Shown: in pieces, positions 42,330 to 57,155 of the stretch | Numbering within the stretch: the first letter of the stretch is position 1 | Layout of the letters: every line of letters starts with the position of its first letter | Source of the DNA: Thermoguttaceae bacterium | Lineage (GTDB): Bacteria > Planctomycetota > Planctomycetia > Pirellulales > Thermoguttaceae | Direction of reading: 5' to 3' | Length of the DNA stretch: 64,000 nt | Assembly: GCA_017939795.1 (NCBI GenBank) | Contig: JAGBAA010000098.1 | Location: forward strand, 1-64,000 | The notes under the pieces: model-generated | Databases searched by the model: none | Told to the model about the DNA's origin: nothing | The model's input: the letters and a program-made list of their open reading frames with translations, nothing else | Program-made: the position numbers and the translations under genes

Positions 42330-42509
42330 GTTCCTGAAGTTTTGAGAACTCGGATGCCGAAAGGCTCACTTTCAGGATTTGATTTTCCGTGCGTTTTCGG
42401 CCGGTTTGGTGCCGGAAACGCATGATTTGTGTCCCGACGCCATTCAGGTTTGGGGCGAAACGCCGTTCATTTTACTTCATGGACCGACCCGGTCCCGGAA
42501 TCAGAGACC

Positions 42510-44672
42510 ATGCCAACTCCCACACCTCAAGAACCGAATCGTCGTCCTGTACGTCCCCAGCCTCTCAAACCGGTTTCCGCTCCGCAGTCTGGTTCGACGC
42601 AGCGTCCGCTGAAGCCTCAGCCGGTGAAGCCGCAGTCAGCATCACCTCAGCCTCTGAAGCCCCAGCCGCTGAAGTCCCAGCCGCTGAAACCGCAGTCTTT
42701 GCGGCCGGTTCCTGTATCGTCGGAGACGGCGGTCCGTGATTCCGGGCAGAAGCGCGGGGCGGTGCGTCCGGTGCTGATCCAGGAAGAGGCACCGGCTCCG
42801 ATGGTGCTTTCTGAAGAGGCTCAGATTTTTTCTGTCGCGCTTTCCGAGACGGATGTTTCTGATTTTCTGGTAGAGCAGGATGCCTATCTTGCCGAGACGA
42901 TCCATGTTCGTGAGGAGCCGGAGGAGGAAGAGGAGCTTACGGATAAAATCGTGAAAGGTGCGCCGCCGTGGTTCATCAGCACGATCGGGCACGTGATCCT
43001 GATCCTTCTTGGAGCACTTTTGGTCTCTGTCGTTCCGACGCCGCAGAAACCGCTCATGGTCGAGTGTGAGATGGTGGTGGAAGTGGAAGAAGAGGAGGAA
43101 GAGGAAGAGATCTTCCTGGAAGAAGTCGGCGTTCAGCAGGAGCTGGAGGCGGAGACTCCTACGGAAACAGAAGAGCCGGAAGCGAGCGAGATGGCCGAGG
43201 AGGACAAGCCGGTGGAAGATCCGATGCTTGAGCCGGAAGCGCTTCCGGTTACCGAGACTGGAACGATGGCGGCTCATTTGAAGGAAGCTCCGGTTGGTGC
43301 CCGATTTGACGGACGCACGCCGGGAGGCCGAAAGGGGCTTTTAGGCCGGTATGGCGGCACGAAATCGACGGAAGAGGCGGTCGAGCTTGGACTTCAGTGG
43401 CTCGTGAAGCAGCAGGAGAAGAAAAACGGCCCGAATCGCGGTTCATGGAGTCTTGAGGGACCGTATTCGGACGGTCTGGAAGACATCGAAAACCGGATAT
43501 CCGCGACGTCAATGGCACTTCTGGCATTTCAGGGGGCAGGGTATACGCAGTTTCCGCCGAAATTGACCGAAGAGGATAAAAAGTCCAAAAAGCGCAGGGA
43601 GAAAGCCCTCAAGCGCATCCGTGAGGCGGGGAAATACCGCCAGACGATCGCGATCGGCTGGACGTGGCTTTTGAAGCAGCAGGGACCGGACGGGCAGTTT
43701 CTGCCGAAGGATGGAACGCACAATCACGCGTTCTACACGCATTCGCAGGCGACCATCGCGCTTTGCGAGCTTTACGGCATGACGAAAAACGAGAAATTCC
43801 GCATCCCGGCACAGAAGGCGGTCCAGTTTCTCCTGGCGACGCAGCATCATGACGGTGCGTGGCGGTACACGCTGCAGAAGGACGAAATGTCGGACCTTTC
43901 CGTGACGGGGTGGGTGCTGATGGCACTTCAGAGTGCACGGATGGCGGGGTTGGAAGTTCCGCAGGAGGCTCTGGACGGCATCACGCGCTACCTCGATTCC
44001 AACGGCGCGCCGAACGAGCAGGTCTACTATCGGTACACGAACATGGAGGTCCATCCGAGCATGAGCATGACGGCGGAAGGGATGCTTTGCCGTCAGTATC
44101 TTGGCTGGGAACAGAATGATCCGCGCATGGAAAAGGCACTGGACCGCGTCTTGACGGAGCCGGTCTCTTTCCGCGGCGAGACCGACGTCTACAAATGGTA
44201 CTATGCGACGCAGGCGATGCACCACAAAGAGGGACGCTGGTGGACGGAGTGGAATGGGACCATGCGTCAGGAACTCCCCTCGCATCAGGTCCGGACCGGG
44301 CCGGAGCGCGGCAGCTGGAATCCGCGGAATGACCGATTTGCGTCGGATCAGGGCGGGCGTCTGTTCATGACGTGCCTGAGCATCTACATGCTGGAGGTCT
44401 ACTATCGCCATCTTCCGATCTACGCGAAGCTCTTTGATGAGAACGGCAAGATGAACTTTGACGCACCGGAAGAGCCGGCAGCGGATCCTGCAAATGCGCC
44501 TTCTGGAAACAGCGGGACGGAGAGTGCCGTTTCACCGGCTGCGGAAACGTCTCCGGAGAGCAGCTCTGTGCCGGGACCTGCGGAAGGCGGTATTTCGGGC
44601 GAAAATAGTGTTTTGGGCGAAGACGGAGAGGCCGGAAAGTCGATTTTGGATGAGTTGGGAGAGAATGGCTGA
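42510..44672 (+). CDS. Membrane-anchored prenyltransferase/squalene-cyclase-like alpha/alpha toroid protein
   Basis: Encodes about 720 residues from 42510; a GTG at 42429 is an alternative, and neither has a strong ribosome site. Order: a Pro/Gln/Lys-rich N-terminus with PLKPQ repeats (residues 1-70), one transmembrane helix (IGHVILILLGALLVSVV, about 156-172), an acidic run of Glu (VEEEEEEEE), then toroid repeats such as ALKRIREAG, GWTWLLKQQGPDGQF and AVQFLLATQHHDGAWRY. The repeats match the prenyltransferase/squalene oxidase repeat family. No DxDD or other cyclase catalytic motif was found, so this is probably a binding or scaffold protein, a type common in planctomycetes. The C-terminal 80 residues are again low-complexity. 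Confidence 0.72.
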   Translation: MPTPTPQEPNRRPVRPQPLKPVSAPQSGSTQRPLKPQPVKPQSASPQPLKPQPLKSQPLKPQSLRPVPVSSETAVRDSGQKRGAVRPVLIQEEAPAPMVLSEEAQIFSVALSETDVSDFLVEQDAYLAETIHVREEPEEEEELTDKIVKGAPPWFISTIGHVILILLGALLVSVVPTPQKPLMVECEMVVEVEEEEEEEEIFLEEVGVQQELEAETPTETEEPEASEMAEEDKPVEDPMLEPEALPVTETGTMAAHLKEAPVGARFDGRTPGGRKGLLGRYGGTKSTEEAVELGLQWLVKQQEKKNGPNRGSWSLEGPYSDGLEDIENRISATSMALLAFQGAGYTQFPPKLTEEDKKSKKRREKALKRIREAGKYRQTIAIGWTWLLKQQGPDGQFLPKDGTHNHAFYTHSQATIALCELYGMTKNEKFRIPAQKAVQFLLATQHHDGAWRYTLQKDEMSDLSVTGWVLMALQSARMAGLEVPQEALDGITRYLDSNGAPNEQVYYRYTNMEVHPSMSMTAEGMLCRQYLGWEQNDPRMEKALDRVLTEPVSFRGETDVYKWYYATQAMHHKEGRWWTEWNGTMRQELPSHQVRTGPERGSWNPRNDRFASDQGGRLFMTCLSIYMLEVYYRHLPIYAKLFDENGKMNFDAPEEPAADPANAPSGNSGTESAVSPAAETSPESSSVPGPAEGGISGENSVLGEDGEAGKSILDELGENG

Positions 44673-46032: not shown

Positions 46033-47286
46033 ATGAAAGAAAAATCCAGTACGATTGCTTGCACGATTTCCAGGACTTTCGATGTGGCCCATATGCTCAT
46101 CGCAGTCCTTCCGCCGAAAGAACTTCTTGAAGAACCGCTGGCTGTCCAGCTTCAGGCGGTTGAGGATCAGGTTCGTGCCTGTATCTCGCAGAATGCGCCG
46201 AGTGCCAAAGTCATTCAGCAGACCGTTTTTCTGAAAAATTATGAAGATCGGCACGTCTGCCAGGAATTTTGGCGCAACGTATACGGTCCTGCTCTTCCGG
46301 TCAATGTTTACGTGCCGCAGGCACCGAGTGACGGTCAGCTTCTGGCGGTGGAGATCATTGCGCAGGAGTGCGGGACGGGCAGTGATCCGGCGCAGGTGAT
46401 CCACGAGAAGGAAGATCTCACGATCCTGAAGCATTCCGGCGTCACCTGGTACTATGCGTGCCAGCAGGAGCCTGCGGACTATTCCTGGAGTATGTACTCG
46501 CAGTCGGTCGAGATGTTTCAGGAGTTGGACAAAACGTTCCTTTCCCAGAAGATCCCGTTTGAGAACGTGATCCGTACCTGGCTCTACCTCGGAAACATCA
46601 CCGAGCCGACGTACAGTGAACTGGAAGGGGAGACGCAGCGGTACAAGGAGCTGAATCGTGCGCGTACGGATTTCTTCCGCGACATCCGTTTCTTTGATGG
46701 GCTGACTGCGAAACCGTGGACGCACGCGGTCTATCCGGCAAGTACGGGGATCGGTGCGGACGGCGATACGGTCGTCATGAGCGCACTGGCCGTTAAATTT
46801 GACGACCCGGAAAAAGGATGCGTCATTCCGCTGGAAAATCCGCATCAGACATCAGCGTTCGATTACGGCGAACAGTACAGCATCAAGAGCCCGAAATTTG
46901 CGCGTGCGCTTTTGCTTGCGAGCGAAGAGTCGGGGATCATTTTTGTCTCCGGCACGGCAAGCATCACGGATCAGGAGACGCGGTATCTGGATGATCCGCT
47001 GAATCAGACGGAACTGACGCTGGATAATATTGAGATCCTCATTGCGGAGGAAAACCTCAAAGCGCACGGCAAACCCGGCTTCGGATGCCCGCTTGACGGA
47101 TTGGTCTCAGCCCGTGTGTACGTAAAGCGTCCGGAGCACCTCGAAACGATCCGTGCCGTCTGTGAACGCCGGATCCCAAACGTTCCGAAGATCTACACGA
47201 TCGCGGATGTGTGCCGTCCGGACCTTCTTGTTGAAATCGAAGGAATGGCTGACGTCGGCCCTGCGAGTCGGGTCGAAAGGATCTAG
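46033..47286 (+). CDS. FkbO/Hyg5-type chorismatase-like protein (RidA-like fold)
   Basis: Encodes 417 residues. There is no signal peptide. The C-terminal half follows the chorismatase/XanB2 pattern: DGDTVVMSALAVKF, then ENPHQTSAFDYGEQYSIKSPKFARA, then VSGTASITDQETRYLDD with Gln/Glu two turns later (NQTELTLDNI). These enzymes have two RidA/YjgF-like halves and hydrolyse chorismate to pyruvate and a hydroxybenzoate or dihydrodiol. Only the overall block order was compared, so chorismate as the substrate is a hypothesis; a generic RidA-like protein is the alternative. Transcribed alone with a long leader and a terminator. No biosynthetic cluster surrounds it. Confidence 0.65.
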   Translation: MKEKSSTIACTISRTFDVAHMLIAVLPPKELLEEPLAVQLQAVEDQVRACISQNAPSAKVIQQTVFLKNYEDRHVCQEFWRNVYGPALPVNVYVPQAPSDGQLLAVEIIAQECGTGSDPAQVIHEKEDLTILKHSGVTWYYACQQEPADYSWSMYSQSVEMFQELDKTFLSQKIPFENVIRTWLYLGNITEPTYSELEGETQRYKELNRARTDFFRDIRFFDGLTAKPWTHAVYPASTGIGADGDTVVMSALAVKFDDPEKGCVIPLENPHQTSAFDYGEQYSIKSPKFARALLLASEESGIIFVSGTASITDQETRYLDDPLNQTELTLDNIEILIAEENLKAHGKPGFGCPLDGLVSARVYVKRPEHLETIRAVCERRIPNVPKIYTIADVCRPDLLVEIEGMADVGPASRVERI

Positions 47287-49485: not shown

Positions 49486-49562
49486 ACGAGTGAATGCGGT
49501 CTCGTTTCCAGCTGCCGGATTTTCTTTTCAATGAACTCAACTGAATGCGGAAGGCAGGCAAA

Positions 49563-51509
49563 ATGAGCGACACACCGAAGTATTCGTACTGGCATCTGAG
49601 TGAGGCGGAACAGAGGCGTCTTGAAGCGGAACGGAAAGAGATGGAGCGTTTGCGGGAGATCCAGATCCGTGAGGCGGCGGAGATACGGCGCAAAGAACGG
49701 CTGGCGATCTTCTGCGGTCTGGTACGGCAGGAGATCGAAATTCAGGAACAGACGATCCGGAATCTGGATTCTGCGTTTCAGACGCATGGTTTCACCGGGG
49801 GTGAGGAATTGAAAGAAATGCCTCTGATTTTGGAGGGTGCCAGGCAGGAACTTTCTGAAGCTGCGTGGGACGAAGATGCTCGCCGGGTCCAGAAAAAGAT
49901 CCGGAATCAGCAGAAAGTCCTTGAGCGTTTAACGGACCAGCTTGCCGTTCGGGAGAAACTGCTCCGTGAGCTGGAGTCGGCGCGTACGGAGCTTTGGGAG
50001 CGTCCGCGGCTTCACGATATTTTTCCGGGTGCCGTTCAGCTGGCTGATCTGGAATCTTTTGAAGTGCAGGCCCGGACCTTACCGGGAGGGGAGGAACTTC
50101 AGGGATTTCTCCAGATCTGGAAGGGGCGATTTGAGGAACTGCGCGGATTTTGCCTTCTTCTGGATCAGCAGAAACGGTATCGGGAGATCTCCGCCGGGAT
50201 GGAGCAGTGGGATCGACAGTTTCTGGCAGGAAAAAATGCGGAATTCTGTCAGCGGCTCATGGTTCAGCTTGAGAATCTGAAGAACGCGCTGGCGGTGAAT
50301 GATTCCCGGGCTGCATCTGCGGCGCTTCTTCAGGCGGAGGAGCTTTTTGCGGTTCTGGAAACGAAGCTGGGGCAGGATGAAGCGGAACGGGAGCAGAGAG
50401 TCCAGGCCAATGAAGAGCTTCTGGCGGAGCATTTGGCATGGTGGCGTAAAGAGAACGCGGATTTTTCGCCGGACCGTTTGCCTGCTATGTCTGGAACGGC
50501 AGAGAAATTCGAGAGGGAACTGGCACAGATGCAGACACAGTGCCGTCTGCAGAGCATTGAGAGTTTTGCGCAGTCTGTGAGCCGGATGCGTTTGGCGATG
50601 GAAGCCTTTCGGGAGACTGTTTTTCAGATGGAGAGGTTGGAAAAAATTCAGGAGCGTCTGGAGAATCAGGTGCCGGACACGCTTTGGAGAACATTTGCTC
50701 CGGAAAAGGCGGCGGAACTGGAACGCCGGAAGAATACCCTGGCTCGTCAGGTCCAGAACCGGCAGTGTGCGGATTTTGACGAAGAACTGGAGCGGCTTCA
50801 GGGATTTCTGGATCAGGCGATCGGGGACGTCATGCCGAAAGTAAACTCCTGGAACGTACGCTGGGAGGCCATCCGGACACGTTTGGATGCGGAACGGGAT
50901 CTTTGGTTCTCGTGGTGGGATGAGCCGGCGGTACGCCGTTGGGCGAAGGATGAAATCGCGCAGAAAGAGGCTGAGTTTGAAGCGATCCAAAGAGCTTGGG
51001 AGGCGAGACCCGCAGATCTGAAGCTCGTGGAGGAACTGATCTCAGAATGGCGGCTTGAGATGGAGCGTATCGCGGAGGCGGTCCGCCGTGTTCATGAAAA
51101 TGAGCAGAAACGGCAGAATATCGTGTCGCGGTTTCAGGAAGAATTCCGTCAGCTCGGATTTTCGATGGGCGAGCCGGAATTGGAGGATGGAGAAAATCCG
51201 GCTTCCGGTCTCATTCTGACGGCGTCGCGTCCGGAGGGGAAGACGATCCATGTGCGCTTTGCGCATGATGCCGGTGAGCCAGTCCTTTACGCGGTCGACG
51301 GATTCCCGATGCCGCAGCAGACGGTCAACGGGCAGGAATTCCGCACCTGCGATGAGGCGGAACGTCAGCTGAAGCATCTGCACAGTCTGCTGGAGAAGCA
51401 CGGGATCCTGATGGGGAAGATCCAGTGGGAAGATCAGCCGCCGACGGATCTTGCGCGGGAAGCGATGGAGCTTCCGGATACTGTGGACCGTACGCTGGCG
51501 GAGGAATAA
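49563..51509 (+). CDS. Long coiled-coil protein, partner of the Clp-like ATPase
   Basis: Encodes 648 residues. Almost the whole chain is charged helix with heptad-like spacing, starting with HLSEAEQRRLEAERKEMERL and continuing through repeated Glu/Arg/Gln-rich helices; Trp residues are regularly interspersed. The last ~120 residues change to a compact beta-containing domain (GLILTASRPEGKTIHVRFAHDAG). No signal peptide and no membrane helix, so cytoplasmic. The next gene, a Clp-type AAA+ ATPase, starts 24 bp later with an AAGGAG, so the two form an operon. An adaptor or substrate-handling role for the ATPase is an inference from that pairing. No known family is recognised. Confidence 0.7.
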   Translation: MSDTPKYSYWHLSEAEQRRLEAERKEMERLREIQIREAAEIRRKERLAIFCGLVRQEIEIQEQTIRNLDSAFQTHGFTGGEELKEMPLILEGARQELSEAAWDEDARRVQKKIRNQQKVLERLTDQLAVREKLLRELESARTELWERPRLHDIFPGAVQLADLESFEVQARTLPGGEELQGFLQIWKGRFEELRGFCLLLDQQKRYREISAGMEQWDRQFLAGKNAEFCQRLMVQLENLKNALAVNDSRAASAALLQAEELFAVLETKLGQDEAEREQRVQANEELLAEHLAWWRKENADFSPDRLPAMSGTAEKFERELAQMQTQCRLQSIESFAQSVSRMRLAMEAFRETVFQMERLEKIQERLENQVPDTLWRTFAPEKAAELERRKNTLARQVQNRQCADFDEELERLQGFLDQAIGDVMPKVNSWNVRWEAIRTRLDAERDLWFSWWDEPAVRRWAKDEIAQKEAEFEAIQRAWEARPADLKLVEELISEWRLEMERIAEAVRRVHENEQKRQNIVSRFQEEFRQLGFSMGEPELEDGENPASGLILTASRPEGKTIHVRFAHDAGEPVLYAVDGFPMPQQTVNGQEFRTCDEAERQLKHLHSLLEKHGILMGKIQWEDQPPTDLAREAMELPDTVDRTLAEE

Positions 51510-51533
51510 AGCGGATTCAAAAAGGAGCAGAAA

Positions 51534-53837
51534 ATGAATGACCTGAATGGCAGAAAATCGTCAGTTTCGACTTGGCGGGATGAAATGCACGCTCAGCTGG
51601 AACGGGGAAAGCACGTTCTGCTTTACGGGAACGTGGATGACCGTTACCTGCTGGATGAAGCGCGGCCGCGGACGGCTCTGCTTGCGCAGTGTCTGAACCA
51701 CTACTTCCTGACGCAAAAGTACCAGCTTGTCGTGCATTACGATCTGGCGGACGGAATGCGGACGGCGATCCCGGAACGTATGGATCCGGTCCTGCTGAAT
51801 CTTCTTGACGGAAATGGGAACTGTACGGAACTTAGTCCGGAAAACTGTACCGGAAACCTTGGGGAAAGAGCGTCTTTCGGAGGTTCCGGAATGGGAGGCG
51901 GAGTTTCTCGGGATGGTTCCGCGGTGCCGCCGGAAGCGCGTGTGGAAACTGGCTCGTACATTACGTCGCGTGCGGAAAAACTGGCTGCCGAGTTTGAGCT
52001 TGCGAGCCAGAAACGGCGGGATGCTGCACGCAGTTCCCTTTTCAGCCGCAAAGGCCGGGAAACAGGAAAACCGGAAGGATCGGCTGGAGATCCTGGCAGT
52101 GTACCGGGAAATTCCGGAGTACCGGGAAATTCCGGAGTGCCGGGAAATTCCGGAGTGCCGGGAAATTCCGGAGTGCCGGGGAACGCTGGGAGCGGGAACA
52201 GCGGAGCCGGCGAAAATGGCGGCGAACGGGAGAGTACGCCGGTCCCTGTAAGCCTTGCGTCGCGAAGCCGAAATGCAGAGGATGCGATTCCCCAATTGCG
52301 GCGCGTTTTGGCGCAGGATCAGGTCTCGACGGCCGTTGTGGTCCATTTCTCGGACAAACTGTTCGACGACACGCGGCGTCAGAGCCGTTCGGAACGCGAG
52401 TACCTCCTTCATCTGAAAAAGATCCTGATCGAAGCCGCGACGATCCGTCAGGAAGGGTTTTCCGGCCGGCGGAATGCGCTGATCCTCGTTGCGTCACGGC
52501 TTTCCGCAGTTCCGGCGTGGCTCTACCAGGAGCATCCGCTCCTTGCGCTCATCCGGATCCCCAGTCCGCTGGATGAGGAACGAAGGCAGTTCATCGACGG
52601 ATTCCTGGGAGTCTTCACGCGAAATTCGTCACTGACGGAAACCCAGCGCAGTGAGTACGTGCAGACGTTCGTGGATCAGACGCAGGGACTGACGCTCTGG
52701 GACCTCATGGCACTTGGCGCATTGGCGAATCGAAGTGAGGAAGACCCGGTCGATGAGCCGCGCGAGCTGCGTAAGCTGATCTCTCTCTACCGCTACGGCC
52801 AAAAAGAGGATCCGTGGGAAAAATTCAATTCTGGAGACCGACGCGGGAAGATCCAGGACGCCCGTGCAAGCATCGAGAAGCGGGTGAAGGGACAGCCGGA
52901 AGCGGTGAATGCGATCGTGGAGATGCTCATCAGCGCGACGGTCGGCGTCACGATGTCGCCGTCGACCCGGCAATCCGGAAAACCGAAGGGTGTTTTCTTT
53001 TTTGTGGGACCTACCGGCGTCGGAAAAACGGAGCTGGCTAAGGCACTCGCGGAACTGATCTTCGGTGACGAAGCGCGCCTGCGCCGCTTCGACATGAGCG
53101 AGTACTCCGAGTCGCACGCTGCGGAAAAACTCACCGGTTCCCCTCCGGGTTACGTCGGCTACGAGGAAGGGGGGCAGCTTACCAACTTTGTGCGCGAGAA
53201 TCCTTTCAGTCTGCTGCTTTTTGATGAGATCGAGAAGGCGCACGGTCAGGTGATGGACAAATTCCTCCAGATCCTGGAAGATGGACGCCTCACCGACAGT
53301 AAGGGACAGACGGCATTTTTCTCACAGTCCGTCATCATATTCACGAGCAATATCGGGGCAGATTCTCTGTTTACCGACGCTGGAAATGCGCAGGATTGGC
53401 GTGTTTCGGATGAAGAACCGGGCTATGAAGATTACGTACGGAAACATTTTCTTGAAAAAGTGCGCGACCATTTTGTGCATGTGCTGAAACGTCCGGAAAT
53501 CTTGAACCGGTTTGGCGACAACATCATCGTGTTCGACATGCTGCGCCCCGGTTTTGTGCGTTCCATTGGCGAAAAATTCCTTCAGATGCTCAAGACTTCC
53601 GCGCAGGAAAGACGCGGTCTGATCCTTGAGTTTGAGCCGTCGATCCTCCAGTTTGTGCAGGATGCGATGACGCAGCCGCAGAACATCAAAAACGGCGGTC
53701 GGCGTATCCGCACACTTTTGGAAGACCGGCTGGAAAAGAAGCTGAATCGATGGATCTTTGAGCATCAGCCGGAAACGGGAGAGATCCTGATTTTGGGATT
53801 TGACGAAACCGGTACATTGACTGTGCAGCGTCCCTAG
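51534..53837 (+). CDS. AAA+ ATPase: degenerate N-terminal module plus ClpA/ClpB D2-type module
   Basis: Encodes 767 residues. The C-terminal half is a canonical Clp/HSP100 D2 ring module: Walker A GPTGVGKT (492-499), the pore-loop region SPPGYVGYEEGG, Walker B LLLFDEIEKAH (about 560), sensor SNIG and a small C-terminal domain. The N-terminal ~400 residues contain a second AAA-like part without a Walker A (HVLLYGNVDDRYLL, later RLSAVPAWLYQEHPLLALIRIPSPLDEERR). A flexible linker with (GNSGVP) repeats sits at about residues 190-222. A ClpP-binding loop was not identified, so unfolding or remodelling without proteolysis is possible. The layout differs from ClpA, ClpB and ClpC. It is in an operon with a coiled-coil protein. 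Confidence 0.82.
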   Translation: MNDLNGRKSSVSTWRDEMHAQLERGKHVLLYGNVDDRYLLDEARPRTALLAQCLNHYFLTQKYQLVVHYDLADGMRTAIPERMDPVLLNLLDGNGNCTELSPENCTGNLGERASFGGSGMGGGVSRDGSAVPPEARVETGSYITSRAEKLAAEFELASQKRRDAARSSLFSRKGRETGKPEGSAGDPGSVPGNSGVPGNSGVPGNSGVPGNSGVPGNAGSGNSGAGENGGERESTPVPVSLASRSRNAEDAIPQLRRVLAQDQVSTAVVVHFSDKLFDDTRRQSRSEREYLLHLKKILIEAATIRQEGFSGRRNALILVASRLSAVPAWLYQEHPLLALIRIPSPLDEERRQFIDGFLGVFTRNSSLTETQRSEYVQTFVDQTQGLTLWDLMALGALANRSEEDPVDEPRELRKLISLYRYGQKEDPWEKFNSGDRRGKIQDARASIEKRVKGQPEAVNAIVEMLISATVGVTMSPSTRQSGKPKGVFFFVGPTGVGKTELAKALAELIFGDEARLRRFDMSEYSESHAAEKLTGSPPGYVGYEEGGQLTNFVRENPFSLLLFDEIEKAHGQVMDKFLQILEDGRLTDSKGQTAFFSQSVIIFTSNIGADSLFTDAGNAQDWRVSDEEPGYEDYVRKHFLEKVRDHFVHVLKRPEILNRFGDNIIVFDMLRPGFVRSIGEKFLQMLKTSAQERRGLILEFEPSILQFVQDAMTQPQNIKNGGRRIRTLLEDRLEKKLNRWIFEHQPETGEILILGFDETGTLTVQRP
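52104..52175 (+). repeat. 18-bp in-frame tandem repeat encoding GNSGVP
   Basis: Four nearly identical 18-base units, then a degenerate fifth, code for a Gly/Asn/Ser/Val/Pro linker between the N-terminal module and the rest of the ATPase. Confidence 0.9.
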
Positions 53838-54066: not shown

Positions 54067-54128
54067 GGGACACGATGAGCCGGGAATGTATCCGGCCTGA
54101 CCAGCCAACCATTTCAGGAGTGTGCGTC

Positions 54129-57100
54129 ATGTTCAAAAATCCCTCCCCTTGCCGGATGTTCCATGCGTTCCGGTCTCGTTCCCTTTTTTCTTCCCTGATT
54201 CTTTCTTTGCTTTGGTCTCTTTCCGCAGTGGGTATGGTCCGTGCGGAGACGGTCTGGCTTGATGAGCTGGATCTCACCCAGACGACCTGCGGCTGGAAAC
54301 AGACTGCGGCAAATCGGACGGTTGACGGCAATGAACTGATCGTCTGCGGTGAGAAGATCACCCGCGGAGTCGGACATCATGCGCCGGGCGAGATCTTCAT
54401 CATGCTTCCGGAGAAATGCGGGACGGAAATCTCCGGCCGGGTCGGGATCGACGACGAGACCAACGGTCAGGGCCATGCCGAATTCCTGATTTACGGAAAG
54501 ACGGGAGTTCTCTGGCGTTCTGGAGAAATGCGCGGTAAAGAGCAGGCGAAATCTTTCCGTGTTGACCTTTCCGGCCAGCCCTTCGTCCGTCTCGTCTGCG
54601 ACACGCTTCCTGACGGCTACGGGCACGATCACCAGGACTGGATCGAGGTGAAGATCGACTATCGCGGCGGGAAAAAGCCGTACACGATGCTTTTGACGGT
54701 CGGAATGGACGACGAAGGAAACCCGATCGACCGGATGAACGAGAATGCTTGCGAGTGGCTCTCTCTTTCCCGTCTGATCCAGTCCGGAATGCGCCAGAAC
54801 GCGAAAGACGAAGCATTTCACCCGGCCGCGACGCTTTTCGATTCGGACCGCGACCCGCTGGACATCGTCCTGCGCCGTCTGACGCCGCTGGTCGAGAAAC
54901 TTGGTTCGTTCCCGAATGCGCCGGATCTTTCGAAAGAAAAAGCAGAACTGGAAACGCTGACGAAAGCGGAAAATGAAACTCCGGTCGAAGAGATCGCACG
55001 CCGAAAGGAGATTTTCGCGAAAGTCACCGACCTGCGAAAACGGATCGCGTTCAAAAACCCGCTTCTGAACTTCACGGACCTCCTTTTCATCAAGCGGCAC
55101 TATATGCCGGAACCCGAGATGCAGGGAAACCATATGTGCGACCAGTTCTTTGGTTTCCACGGTCGGCAGGGGGGCGGACTTTTTGTTCTGAAGAATGCGT
55201 TCAGCGAAAAACCGGAAGTCGTGGACCTCACGAAAGGGGTAAAGGTCGCGGAAGGCCAGCATGCCGGGACGGAACTTGACTCGACGTGGGCGTTTCTCTC
55301 TCCGGAGTTGGACTACGATGCGCGGGAGATCCTCTTCTGCGCTACGGATGCGAAACAGCCGCGCCATACCTACCAGTGGACTCCCGAAAATACGTACCAT
55401 ATGTTCCGTGCGGAATTCGACCCGGAAACGCGGTCCATTTCCGGATTGACGCAGCTGACGGAAGGAGCGTTCAACGATCTGGATCCGTGCTATCTGCCGA
55501 ACGGCCGGATCATCTTCATTTCCGAGCGGCGCGGAGGCTACGGACGCTGCCATGGGCGGCCGGTCCCGTGCTATACGCTGCATTCCTGCCGGCGTGACGG
55601 AAGCGACATCGTGATGCTTTCGCCGCATGAGACGAACGAATGGCAGCCGGACATCGACCACAACGGGATGGTCATCTACACGCGGTGGGACTATGTGGAC
55701 CGCGGTTTCTCTCAGGCGCACCATCCGTGGATCACGACGCCCGATGGACGCGATCCGCGTGTGCTTCAGGGGAACTACGACCGGATCCAGCAGAACCGCC
55801 CGCACTTTGAATGCGACATTCACCCGATCCCCGGTTCCCGACGTCTGACGGCTACTGCGACGGGGCATCATGCGCAGCATTACGGCTCGCTCATCCTCAT
55901 CGACCCGAACGTTCCCGACTCCAACCAGCCCGGACAGGTCAAACGAATTACCCCGGACCAGCTCTTCATGGAGTCCGAGCTTCAGCCGCACAAAGATCCG
56001 ACGAATTACGGTACCTGCTGGCCGCTGAGCGAGGAATTCTACCTCTGCGTCTACGATCCGTTCTCCCGTTCCGACGCGGGCGAGGCAAACAATTTCGGCA
56101 TTTACCTTCTCGATTGCTATGGGAACCGGACGCTTCTTTACCGCGATCCGAAGATCTCCTGCCGTGACGCGATGCCGATCCGTCCGAGAGCGCGTCAGAC
56201 CATCGTCCCGCATCTGACGGCCGTCGGCAAGCCGCTGGCTCCTGGGGAACAGGCGGTTTCTGTAGATCCGGCGTCGATCTCTCCGGTTTCTCCTGTGGGG
56301 CTGATCAACGTGTACGATTCGAAGTTCCCGTTGACGACTTCTGAAGACGGTACGCCGGCGAAGATCAAGAGTCTGCGCATCGTGCAGCTCCTTCCGAAAA
56401 CGAATCCCTACGCGCACAATCCGGCCATCGGCTACGGAAATCAGAAAGGCGCGCGCCGGATCCTCGGTACTGTTCCGGTCGAAGAGGACGGCAGCGCGTA
56501 CTTCAACCTTCCGATCGACATTCCGGTCTACTTCCAGGCGTTGGATGAAAACGGCGTCGCGGTTCAGGGAATGCGTTCCGCCACGTACGTTCATGCCGGC
56601 GAGCAGCTCACCTGCCAGGGATGCCATGAGGAACGCCACAGTGCGATCACCTCACGTCCGCGGGTTCCGCAGGCCATGCGCCGTGCTCCGAGCACCATTC
56701 AGCCGGATGTGGACGGGACGAATCCGCTGAACTTCGTCCGTCTTGTCCAGCCGGTCCTTGACGCGAAATGTGTTTCCTGCCACGGCGGAGCGGCGAGCGT
56801 TTTGGCGGAATCTTCCGGACTGACTCCCGACCAGGCGCAGAAAGCTGCGAAACTTGATTTGCGCGACGATACGAAGACTGGGCATTTCTCGCCGTCGTAC
56901 GAGGCTCTCCGACGCTTCTGCTTCTACTATGACGACGCGGCATGGACGGAACCGCAAACCTTCCCGGGTAAATTTGGCTCGAACCGCAGCGATCTGTTCC
57001 GTATCCTGAAAGCTCCGCACTACGGTCTGAAACTCACGGAGGAAGAGCTTTACCGCTTCACGGTCTGGATGGACAATAACTGCGACTTTTACGGTGCGTA

Positions 57101-57155
57101 CGACGAGTGCGAGCTCCAGCGCAAGGGCGAAAAAGTCTTCCCGTGGCTCGAGTAG
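54129..57155 (+). CDS. HzsA-related exported protein with NPCBM-like domain and two CxxCH motifs
   Basis: Encodes 1008 residues. AGGAG eight bases before 54129 fixes the start, and a signal peptide is present (SLILSLLWSLSAVGMVRAE). Residues ~40-155 resemble an NPCBM/NEW2 carbohydrate-binding domain (GVGHHAPGEIFIML and GIDDETNGQGHAEFLIYG). A helical linker follows, then the HzsA-related propeller with PD40-like units (DLDPCYLPNGRIIFIS). CQGCH at 829-833 and CVSCH at 881-885 are two haem c attachment sites. It shares the plan of the first HzsA-related protein but has a different N-terminal domain. A redox or sensing role at the cell surface on glycans is an inference. The gene has its own promoter and terminator. 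Confidence 0.75.
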   Translation: MFKNPSPCRMFHAFRSRSLFSSLILSLLWSLSAVGMVRAETVWLDELDLTQTTCGWKQTAANRTVDGNELIVCGEKITRGVGHHAPGEIFIMLPEKCGTEISGRVGIDDETNGQGHAEFLIYGKTGVLWRSGEMRGKEQAKSFRVDLSGQPFVRLVCDTLPDGYGHDHQDWIEVKIDYRGGKKPYTMLLTVGMDDEGNPIDRMNENACEWLSLSRLIQSGMRQNAKDEAFHPAATLFDSDRDPLDIVLRRLTPLVEKLGSFPNAPDLSKEKAELETLTKAENETPVEEIARRKEIFAKVTDLRKRIAFKNPLLNFTDLLFIKRHYMPEPEMQGNHMCDQFFGFHGRQGGGLFVLKNAFSEKPEVVDLTKGVKVAEGQHAGTELDSTWAFLSPELDYDAREILFCATDAKQPRHTYQWTPENTYHMFRAEFDPETRSISGLTQLTEGAFNDLDPCYLPNGRIIFISERRGGYGRCHGRPVPCYTLHSCRRDGSDIVMLSPHETNEWQPDIDHNGMVIYTRWDYVDRGFSQAHHPWITTPDGRDPRVLQGNYDRIQQNRPHFECDIHPIPGSRRLTATATGHHAQHYGSLILIDPNVPDSNQPGQVKRITPDQLFMESELQPHKDPTNYGTCWPLSEEFYLCVYDPFSRSDAGEANNFGIYLLDCYGNRTLLYRDPKISCRDAMPIRPRARQTIVPHLTAVGKPLAPGEQAVSVDPASISPVSPVGLINVYDSKFPLTTSEDGTPAKIKSLRIVQLLPKTNPYAHNPAIGYGNQKGARRILGTVPVEEDGSAYFNLPIDIPVYFQALDENGVAVQGMRSATYVHAGEQLTCQGCHEERHSAITSRPRVPQAMRRAPSTIQPDVDGTNPLNFVRLVQPVLDAKCVSCHGGAASVLAESSGLTPDQAQKAAKLDLRDDTKTGHFSPSYEALRRFCFYYDDAAWTEPQTFPGKFGSNRSDLFRILKAPHYGLKLTEEELYRFTVWMDNNCDFYGAYDECELQRKGEKVFPWLE

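Follow-up and report, generated by a model that had tools for sequence, protein, structure and literature searches.

The locus considered here raises the question of what kind of machine is encoded where the gene of a Clp-like ATPase with an unusual N-terminal half directly follows that of a coiled-coil protein. A preliminary description of the window (the whole stretch of DNA that was analysed, 64,000 nucleotides from a Thermoguttaceae bacterium), made from the sequence alone, presented the two genes as a cassette and as a possible protein-remodelling system. We examined both genes, their relatives and the neighbourhoods of those relatives, and weigh below what the pair may do.

The gene pair in the window

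The coordinates and sizes first given for the two genes, and the gap between them, are correct; all features of the pair described here lie on the forward strand. The first gene (CC, 49563..51509) is an ORF for a 648 aa protein, a putative helical scaffold that belongs to no Pfam family, and the second (AAA, 51534..53837) is an ORF for a 767 aa HSP100-type AAA+ protein with a dead D1. The end of CC and the start of AAA are separated by 24 bp containing an AAGGAG ribosome-binding site (51522..51527), and both frames display coding-type codon-position GC. An upstream ATG at 49545 would add six residues to CC; the start at 49563, which yields a protein beginning with MSDTPKYS, is preferred because homologues in other phyla also open with MSGxPKYS.

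Upstream of the pair lies a gene for a Gfo/Idh/MocA-family oxidoreductase and downstream one for an NPCBM/HZS-alpha protein, and these flanking genes look unrelated to the pair. The downstream gene (54075-57155) encodes 1026 aa with an NPCBM domain and a hydrazine-synthase-alpha middle domain, along with weak cytochrome c matches. Elsewhere in the window, a 747 aa protein (42429-44672) combines a squalene-hopene-cyclase-like toroid domain with a hydrophobic segment and repeats rich in proline, lysine and glutamine, and a 417 aa protein (46033-47286) carries an L-PSP (RidA-type) domain with a weak chorismatase-like match at its N-terminus.

A complete D2 ring behind a dead D1

The second half of the AAA protein had been read as a Clp D2 ring, and our searches bear this out. 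The D2 module (52839..53777, residues 436-748) is a canonical Clp/HSP100 AAA+ module, matching Pfam AAA_2 at 1.8e-48 and, in a PDB profile search, the D2 of ClpC and ClpB at about 1e-98 to 1e-94; the ClpB model gives 244.6 bits over this part of the protein. Walker A (GPTGVGKT, 53007..53030), the DE of Walker B (LLLFDE, 53211..53228), sensor 1, the Arg finger R659 (53508..53510) and sensor 2 R723 (53700..53702) were each found in 29/29 homologues, as was the aromatic residue of the substrate-gripping pore loop (GYVG, 53148..53159), which takes the forms GYVG, GFVG and SYVG among them. A complete Clp-type D2 with an aromatic pore loop, one of the marks of class I HSP100/Clp proteins, is therefore present in all 29.

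The N-terminal half is degenerate, as had been noted, and has no Walker A in any homologue (0/29), leaving it without the catalytic D1 (Walker A and B) of class I proteins. This pseudo-AAA, D1-like module (51567..52796, residues 12-421) superposes on the D1 of ClpC and ClpB and carries, at the place of the P-loop, a GNVDD signature (51627..51641) in which G32 and D36 are invariant across the 29 homologues. No match to the N-terminal 429 residues was found in Pfam, NCBIfam or PADLOC. The variable repeats had been placed between the two halves of the protein, which is wrong: an 18-bp tandem repeat (52104..52180, 4.3 copies, encoding VPGNSG) and a disordered stretch split the N-terminal AAA module itself. 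That disordered insertion (51828..52253, residues about 99-240) has pLDDT <50 over most of its extent and varies in length in the alignment.

An AlphaFold2 model of the AAA protein (mean pLDDT 77) overlays ClpC and ClpB from D1 through to the end (Z ~32, ~510 residues, rmsd ~7 A), aligning from its own residue 9 to ClpC residue 183, with the N-domain absent. Both AAA+ modules of a class I HSP100 protein are recovered in this overlay of the predicted monomer on ClpC/ClpB D1 and D2. Because the model overlays ClpC/ClpB over this whole length, the AAA protein is, on its predicted fold, an HSP100 protein that lacks the N-domain and has a dead D1. The earlier claim that the layout fits none of ClpA, ClpB, ClpC or ClpX holds in that the layout matches no named Clp family, but the overall fold is still that of an HSP100 D1-D2 protein. 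Of the equivalog cut-offs, the full-length scores stay under those for ClpB (244.6 against 1232.1) and ClpA (212.9 against 993.15).

The CC protein

Alignment of 24 CC family members from several phyla describes a protein that evolves fast except at two conserved ends. The N-terminal tail (49563..49586 in the window; family form MSGxPKYS) begins with Met-Ser in 23 of 24 rows, with Gly or Asp frequent at the next position, and many sequences continue as G/D-x-P-K-Y; the PKY motif is missing from the L029-L031 subtype. The best conserved part is a small alpha/beta domain at the C-terminus (51111..51467, residues about 517-635), recovered in alignments, HMM and AlphaFold2, with five strands and a helix (strands predicted at 550-594, helix at 597-611). 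The remainder of the model is helical.

CC has no consistent match in Pfam, and a Foldseek comparison of its fold with the PDB returned nothing at E <0.001. Overlays of three CC helices on the DnaK lid (74 residues, Z 11.5) and of the C-terminal domain on the N-terminal domain of spermine synthase (Z 8.7) were set aside as falling within the range that the tool describes as common for helical proteins or as middling, and a PADLOC match to LmuB (0.0015) looks like coiled-coil background. A role for CC as a dedicated adaptor or scaffold is plausible.

A radical SAM enzyme as third component

The description of the locus as a two-gene cassette proved incomplete: the system has a constant third member, a radical SAM enzyme, and in many relatives its core is flanked by signalling genes. 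The enzyme (RSAM) is a 200-220 aa protein of the NrdG/PFL-activase type (Fer4_12, with NrdG and PFLA matches) found in the neighbourhoods of relatives. Linkage was counted over 36 distinct loci, of which 30 have sufficient flanking sequence for RSAM; for CC with AAA the count covers 35. The linkage of the two genes that had been supposed from the window holds up, with CC adjoining or clustering with the motor in 33/35 loci (a kinase gene intervenes in two), and RSAM is clustered with both in 25/30 loci, in at least seven phylum-level groups. As an independent test, 294 Planctomycetota genomes were searched with CC only; 6 were positive, and all 4 new loci have RSAM and AAA adjacent.

The loci without a linked RSAM are the window, G002, G004, L025 and L055, and at L055 no RSAM was found. 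The genome of the window has its RSAM on another contig (G000:C15:2860-3465; 270.9 bits, against 147.1 for a separate NrdG-type protein at C38), its congener G002 has likewise kept an unlinked RSAM (C135), and in a second congener, G004, the parts are dispersed (RSAM at C6, CC at C50, AAA at C130). In G008, the motor is partnered not by CC but by a ThiF/E1-like protein that weakly resembles JAB (L025 3462-5171 / L035 3092-4801), and no RSAM was found in this genome, which is 82% complete. The ThiF/E1-like partner hints at a ubiquitin-like variant. As a separate observation, a cyanobacterial motor gene (L058 8974-10083) is broken after ~200 codons and followed by a transposase-looking ORF, and the RSAM there is fragmentary too.

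The three parts also occur together irrespective of linkage. Of 60 relatives, nine have full-length AAA (at least 700 bits, where other Clp proteins reach about 311 at most) and nine have subfamily RSAM (at least 200 bits, a line set after the scores were seen), with an overlap of eight (Fisher p=3e-8, kinship ignored). CC, searched in 14 of the 60 genomes, is present in exactly the eight that have both AAA and RSAM, and the ninth RSAM genome is G015, the carrier of a variant motor described below. The congeners G001, G005 and G007 have no AAA, no CC and no RSAM of the subfamily, their RSAM matches being NrdG-like in score or absent. Sequence distances covary as well (Mantel r 0.77-0.86, with 0.81 for AAA-CC and 0.86 for AAA-RSAM, kinship ignored). 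Two genomes, G006 and G027, hold two copies of the module, and in both each RSAM and each CC tracks its own AAA type, being closer to the same type elsewhere than to the second copy within the genome. Linkage, co-occurrence and covariation together make the composition of the module well supported: RSAM, CC and AAA form a three-part module whose bacterial carriers are scattered over at least seven phylum-level groups.

Similar to NrdG and the PFL-activating enzyme, RSAM has the CxxxCxxC radical SAM core (NrdG 3e-34, PDB 8fo0 3e-15). Unlike NrdG, it has a longer C-terminal part and is linked in relatives to CC and AAA rather than to NrdD. Among the ORFs viewed on the 9.8-kb contig that carries the RSAM of the window's genome (C15), none looks NrdD-like; the separate NrdG-type protein of the organism, at C38, lies beside an 825 aa NrdD-like ORF (NrdD being named from sequence).

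A dead module on two motors

The dead N-terminal module is a family of its own. Its profile gives a weak match to VCP-like D1 in the PDB (0.01) and none to the genome's own ClpB/ClpC-type proteins. The preliminary description had suggested looking for other proteins with this module, and such proteins exist in one planctomycete genus, that of G015, where a homologous dead N-module is joined in one protein to a pair of CbxX/SpoVK-type AAA domains (Pfam AAA twice, plus AAA_lid_6; L088 1258-7467 and L093-L102). The CbxX/SpoVK label is one that we assume from the AAA_lid_6 lid family. An N-module profile built without the CbxX-type proteins matches all ten of them at 1e-9 to 1e-13 (0/20 shuffles), and profile-profile comparison of the two N-modules gives 1.9e-10 and 97%. 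A search of 60 genomes around G015 turned up the CbxX-type N-module in 12, all of them members of the G015 genus. In G015 itself, RSAM and a CC-like protein (a weak match, 2e-5) precede the fusion, and genes for TerD and DO-GTPase1 accompany it. This joining of the module to CbxX/SpoVK-type domains within one genus marks it, as judged from sequence, as portable and its motor as exchangeable.

Signalling genes around the core

In loci of Armatimonadota, cyanobacteria and proteobacteria the core lies among genes for kinase, PP2C, FHA and vWA proteins, and L031 has those for vWA, PP2C and kinase. Seven planctomycete loci have a different set, in which DO-GTPase2 and GAP1-N2 are joined by a 430-460 aa protein that matches nothing in Pfam and by a membrane protein weakly similar to GTPases, and in G004 it is RSAM itself that lies among GTPase-type genes. 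The window and G002 have no linked RSAM or signalling gene. The genome of the window carries DO-GTPase2/GAP1-N2 on another contig (C112), its DO-GTPase being 62% identical to that of G004, and at C110 it encodes a protein related to the 430 aa one. We would also like to record a second GAP1-N2 protein of this genome (1665 aa; L067, G000:C137, 1-9328), near two vWA-looking proteins, and an SF1-type helicase (AAA_11/AAA_12; L054 14591-18085) downstream of the module's vWA, PP2C and kinase genes.

Proposed mechanism and alternatives

We give about an even chance to the reading that the window pair is a copy of a three-component remodelling module, made up of RSAM, a CC scaffold and an HSP100-type motor with a dead D1, and that this module works as follows. 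The D1-like module without a P-loop would be the platform on which CC or its signalling partners dock. The single active D2 ring would thread a polypeptide through its aromatic pore loop, most probably CC itself or a client that CC holds, and this threading would disassemble or re-set a CC-based complex without degradation. RSAM, which probably modifies CC, would license the threading step by modifying or activating CC (or the client). We know of no earlier tie between radical SAM chemistry and an HSP100 motor. The upstream signal would come from a kinase/phosphatase/FHA/vWA or a DO-GTPase/GAP1-N2 switch, and with a switch of either kind upstream the probable role of the module is in the response to stress or conflict. 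Weighing against this reading are the CC proteins of the L029-L031 subtype, which have no PKY motif, the G008 motor with its ThiF-like partner, and the window and G002, where neither RSAM nor a signalling gene is linked.

Proteolysis is another reading, in which AAA would unfold substrates for ClpP and CC would serve it as MecA serves ClpC, in the role of adaptor. The closest PDB relatives of the full AAA model are indeed ClpC-ClpP complexes, and D2 is most like that of ClpC/ClpB. However, a search for a ClpP-binding loop, another of the early suggestions, found the [LIVMP]-G-[FLM] docking tripeptide in 0/29 homologues in the segment from sensor 1 to the Arg finger, which we take to be where ClpA/C carry it. 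A partnership with ClpP was rejected on this ground, and no recurrent adjoining peptidase gene was noted in the loci examined, in a non-exhaustive view of the neighbourhoods; we hold the proteolytic reading to be quite improbable. Disassembly of a sheath or filament, with the motor taking apart a CC polymer as ClpV does the type VI secretion sheath, is by analogy a somewhat better candidate, and still an unlikely one. An HSP100 motor with a helical partner and kinase, PP2C, FHA and vWA neighbours would suit it, and a set of kinase, phosphatase and FHA partners would be reminiscent of phospho-control in type VI secretion. Nevertheless, AAA scores 206.1 bits against a cut-off of 884.95 for the ClpV (TssH) model TIGR03345, far enough below it that membership was rejected, and CC has no confident structural match.

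The module might instead serve in conflict, against phage or otherwise, with the motor freeing or activating an effector after sensing by a GTPase or kinase. This would be in analogy with a proposal of Kaur et al. 2020 (PMC7159879), who read DO-GTPase/GAP1 systems, including those with GAP1-N2, as conflict systems. The DO-GTPase/GAP1-N2 or kinase/PP2C/vWA/FHA genes round the core, the TerD and DO-GTPase1 genes that adjoin the CbxX variant and the sporadic spread of CC (6/294 Planctomycetota genomes), with which a defence role is compatible, all point this way. Yet the constant core has no toxin, nuclease or pore effector, and the window copy is flanked by metabolic genes. The PADLOC matches (PDC-M37/PDC-M37B and DolB) are confined to the part that is Clp ATPase (e.g. 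308-427 of 518), so membership of a known defence family was rejected, as was a phage origin, since no relative was found among the viral contigs searched. On balance we consider this reading possible and rather unlikely. Least probable of all, and very much so, is a glycyl-radical system, in which RSAM would be the activase, CC or a hidden partner would bear the radical, and the ATPase would re-set the spent enzyme like a reactivase. RSAM is nearest to NrdG and the PFL-activating enzyme, and most CC proteins have a G-Y/F pair in the C-terminal domain; this glycine is not invariant, however, the L029-L031 subtype having Q, H or N in its place, on which account CC was rejected as a glycyl-radical enzyme. 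The lack of a consistent Pfam match for CC and the score of the window genome's RSAM, which misses the NrdG cut-off (118.2 against 126.1 bits), also speak against it.

Returning to the remodelling module, we would tentatively extend it to a class of signal-controlled remodelling machines in which an RSAM-modified helical scaffold gates an ATPase and a single dead AAA module is shared, as a portable adaptor, by motors of at least two unrelated kinds (Clp-type and CbxX/SpoVK-type), a generalisation that we regard as doubtful. The occurrence of one dead D1-like module on two motors is a natural experiment that makes the role of a dead ring (docking versus hydrolysis) testable. The module is moreover small, is spread sporadically over at least seven phylum-level groups in the manner of accessory defence or stress systems, and offers a clear catalytic ring to mutate.

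Comparison with known systems

HSP100 motors are known, as are radical SAM activases and DO-GTPase/TerY-type signalling; the libraries and papers searched contain neither the constant combination of the three nor the dead-D1 family with its change of motor. The set of RSAM, CC and AAA is undescribed in the full-text literature searched, subscription journals lying outside that search.

Similar to the TerY-P triad and Ter systems, the module is adjoined in L031/L054 by two vWA proteins, a PP2C and a kinase, and TerD lies beside the CbxX variant. Unlike them, the window has no triad linkage and, to our knowledge, RSAM, CC and an HSP100 motor are no part of the triad (vWA, PP2C, kinase). The DO-GTPase2 and GAP1-N2 genes linked to the module in the seven planctomycete loci recall the DO-GTPase/GAP1-N2 systems of PMC7159879, whose GAP1-N2 section sets out tubulin, HSP70-GrpE and kinase-PP2C-vWA themes; in contrast to the module, that section has no Clp-like ATPase or radical SAM theme. 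With ClpC, ClpA and ClpB, the AAA protein shares the D1-D2 layout in its predicted fold, the full D2 catalytic set and the aromatic pore loop, and it differs from them in having no N-domain or ClpP tripeptide, in the large disordered insertion of its dead D1, and in that this D1 goes unrecognised by the Pfam and NCBIfam Clp models. An AAA+ protein that is linked to PspA and whose N-terminal copy is inactive has been described among the classical, Vps4-like AAA+ ATPases (PMC11237479). The D2 here is, in contrast, of the Clp type; similar to that protein, as compared by description only, the AAA protein has two AAA modules, of which the N-terminal one is inactive, and is associated with a coiled-coil protein.
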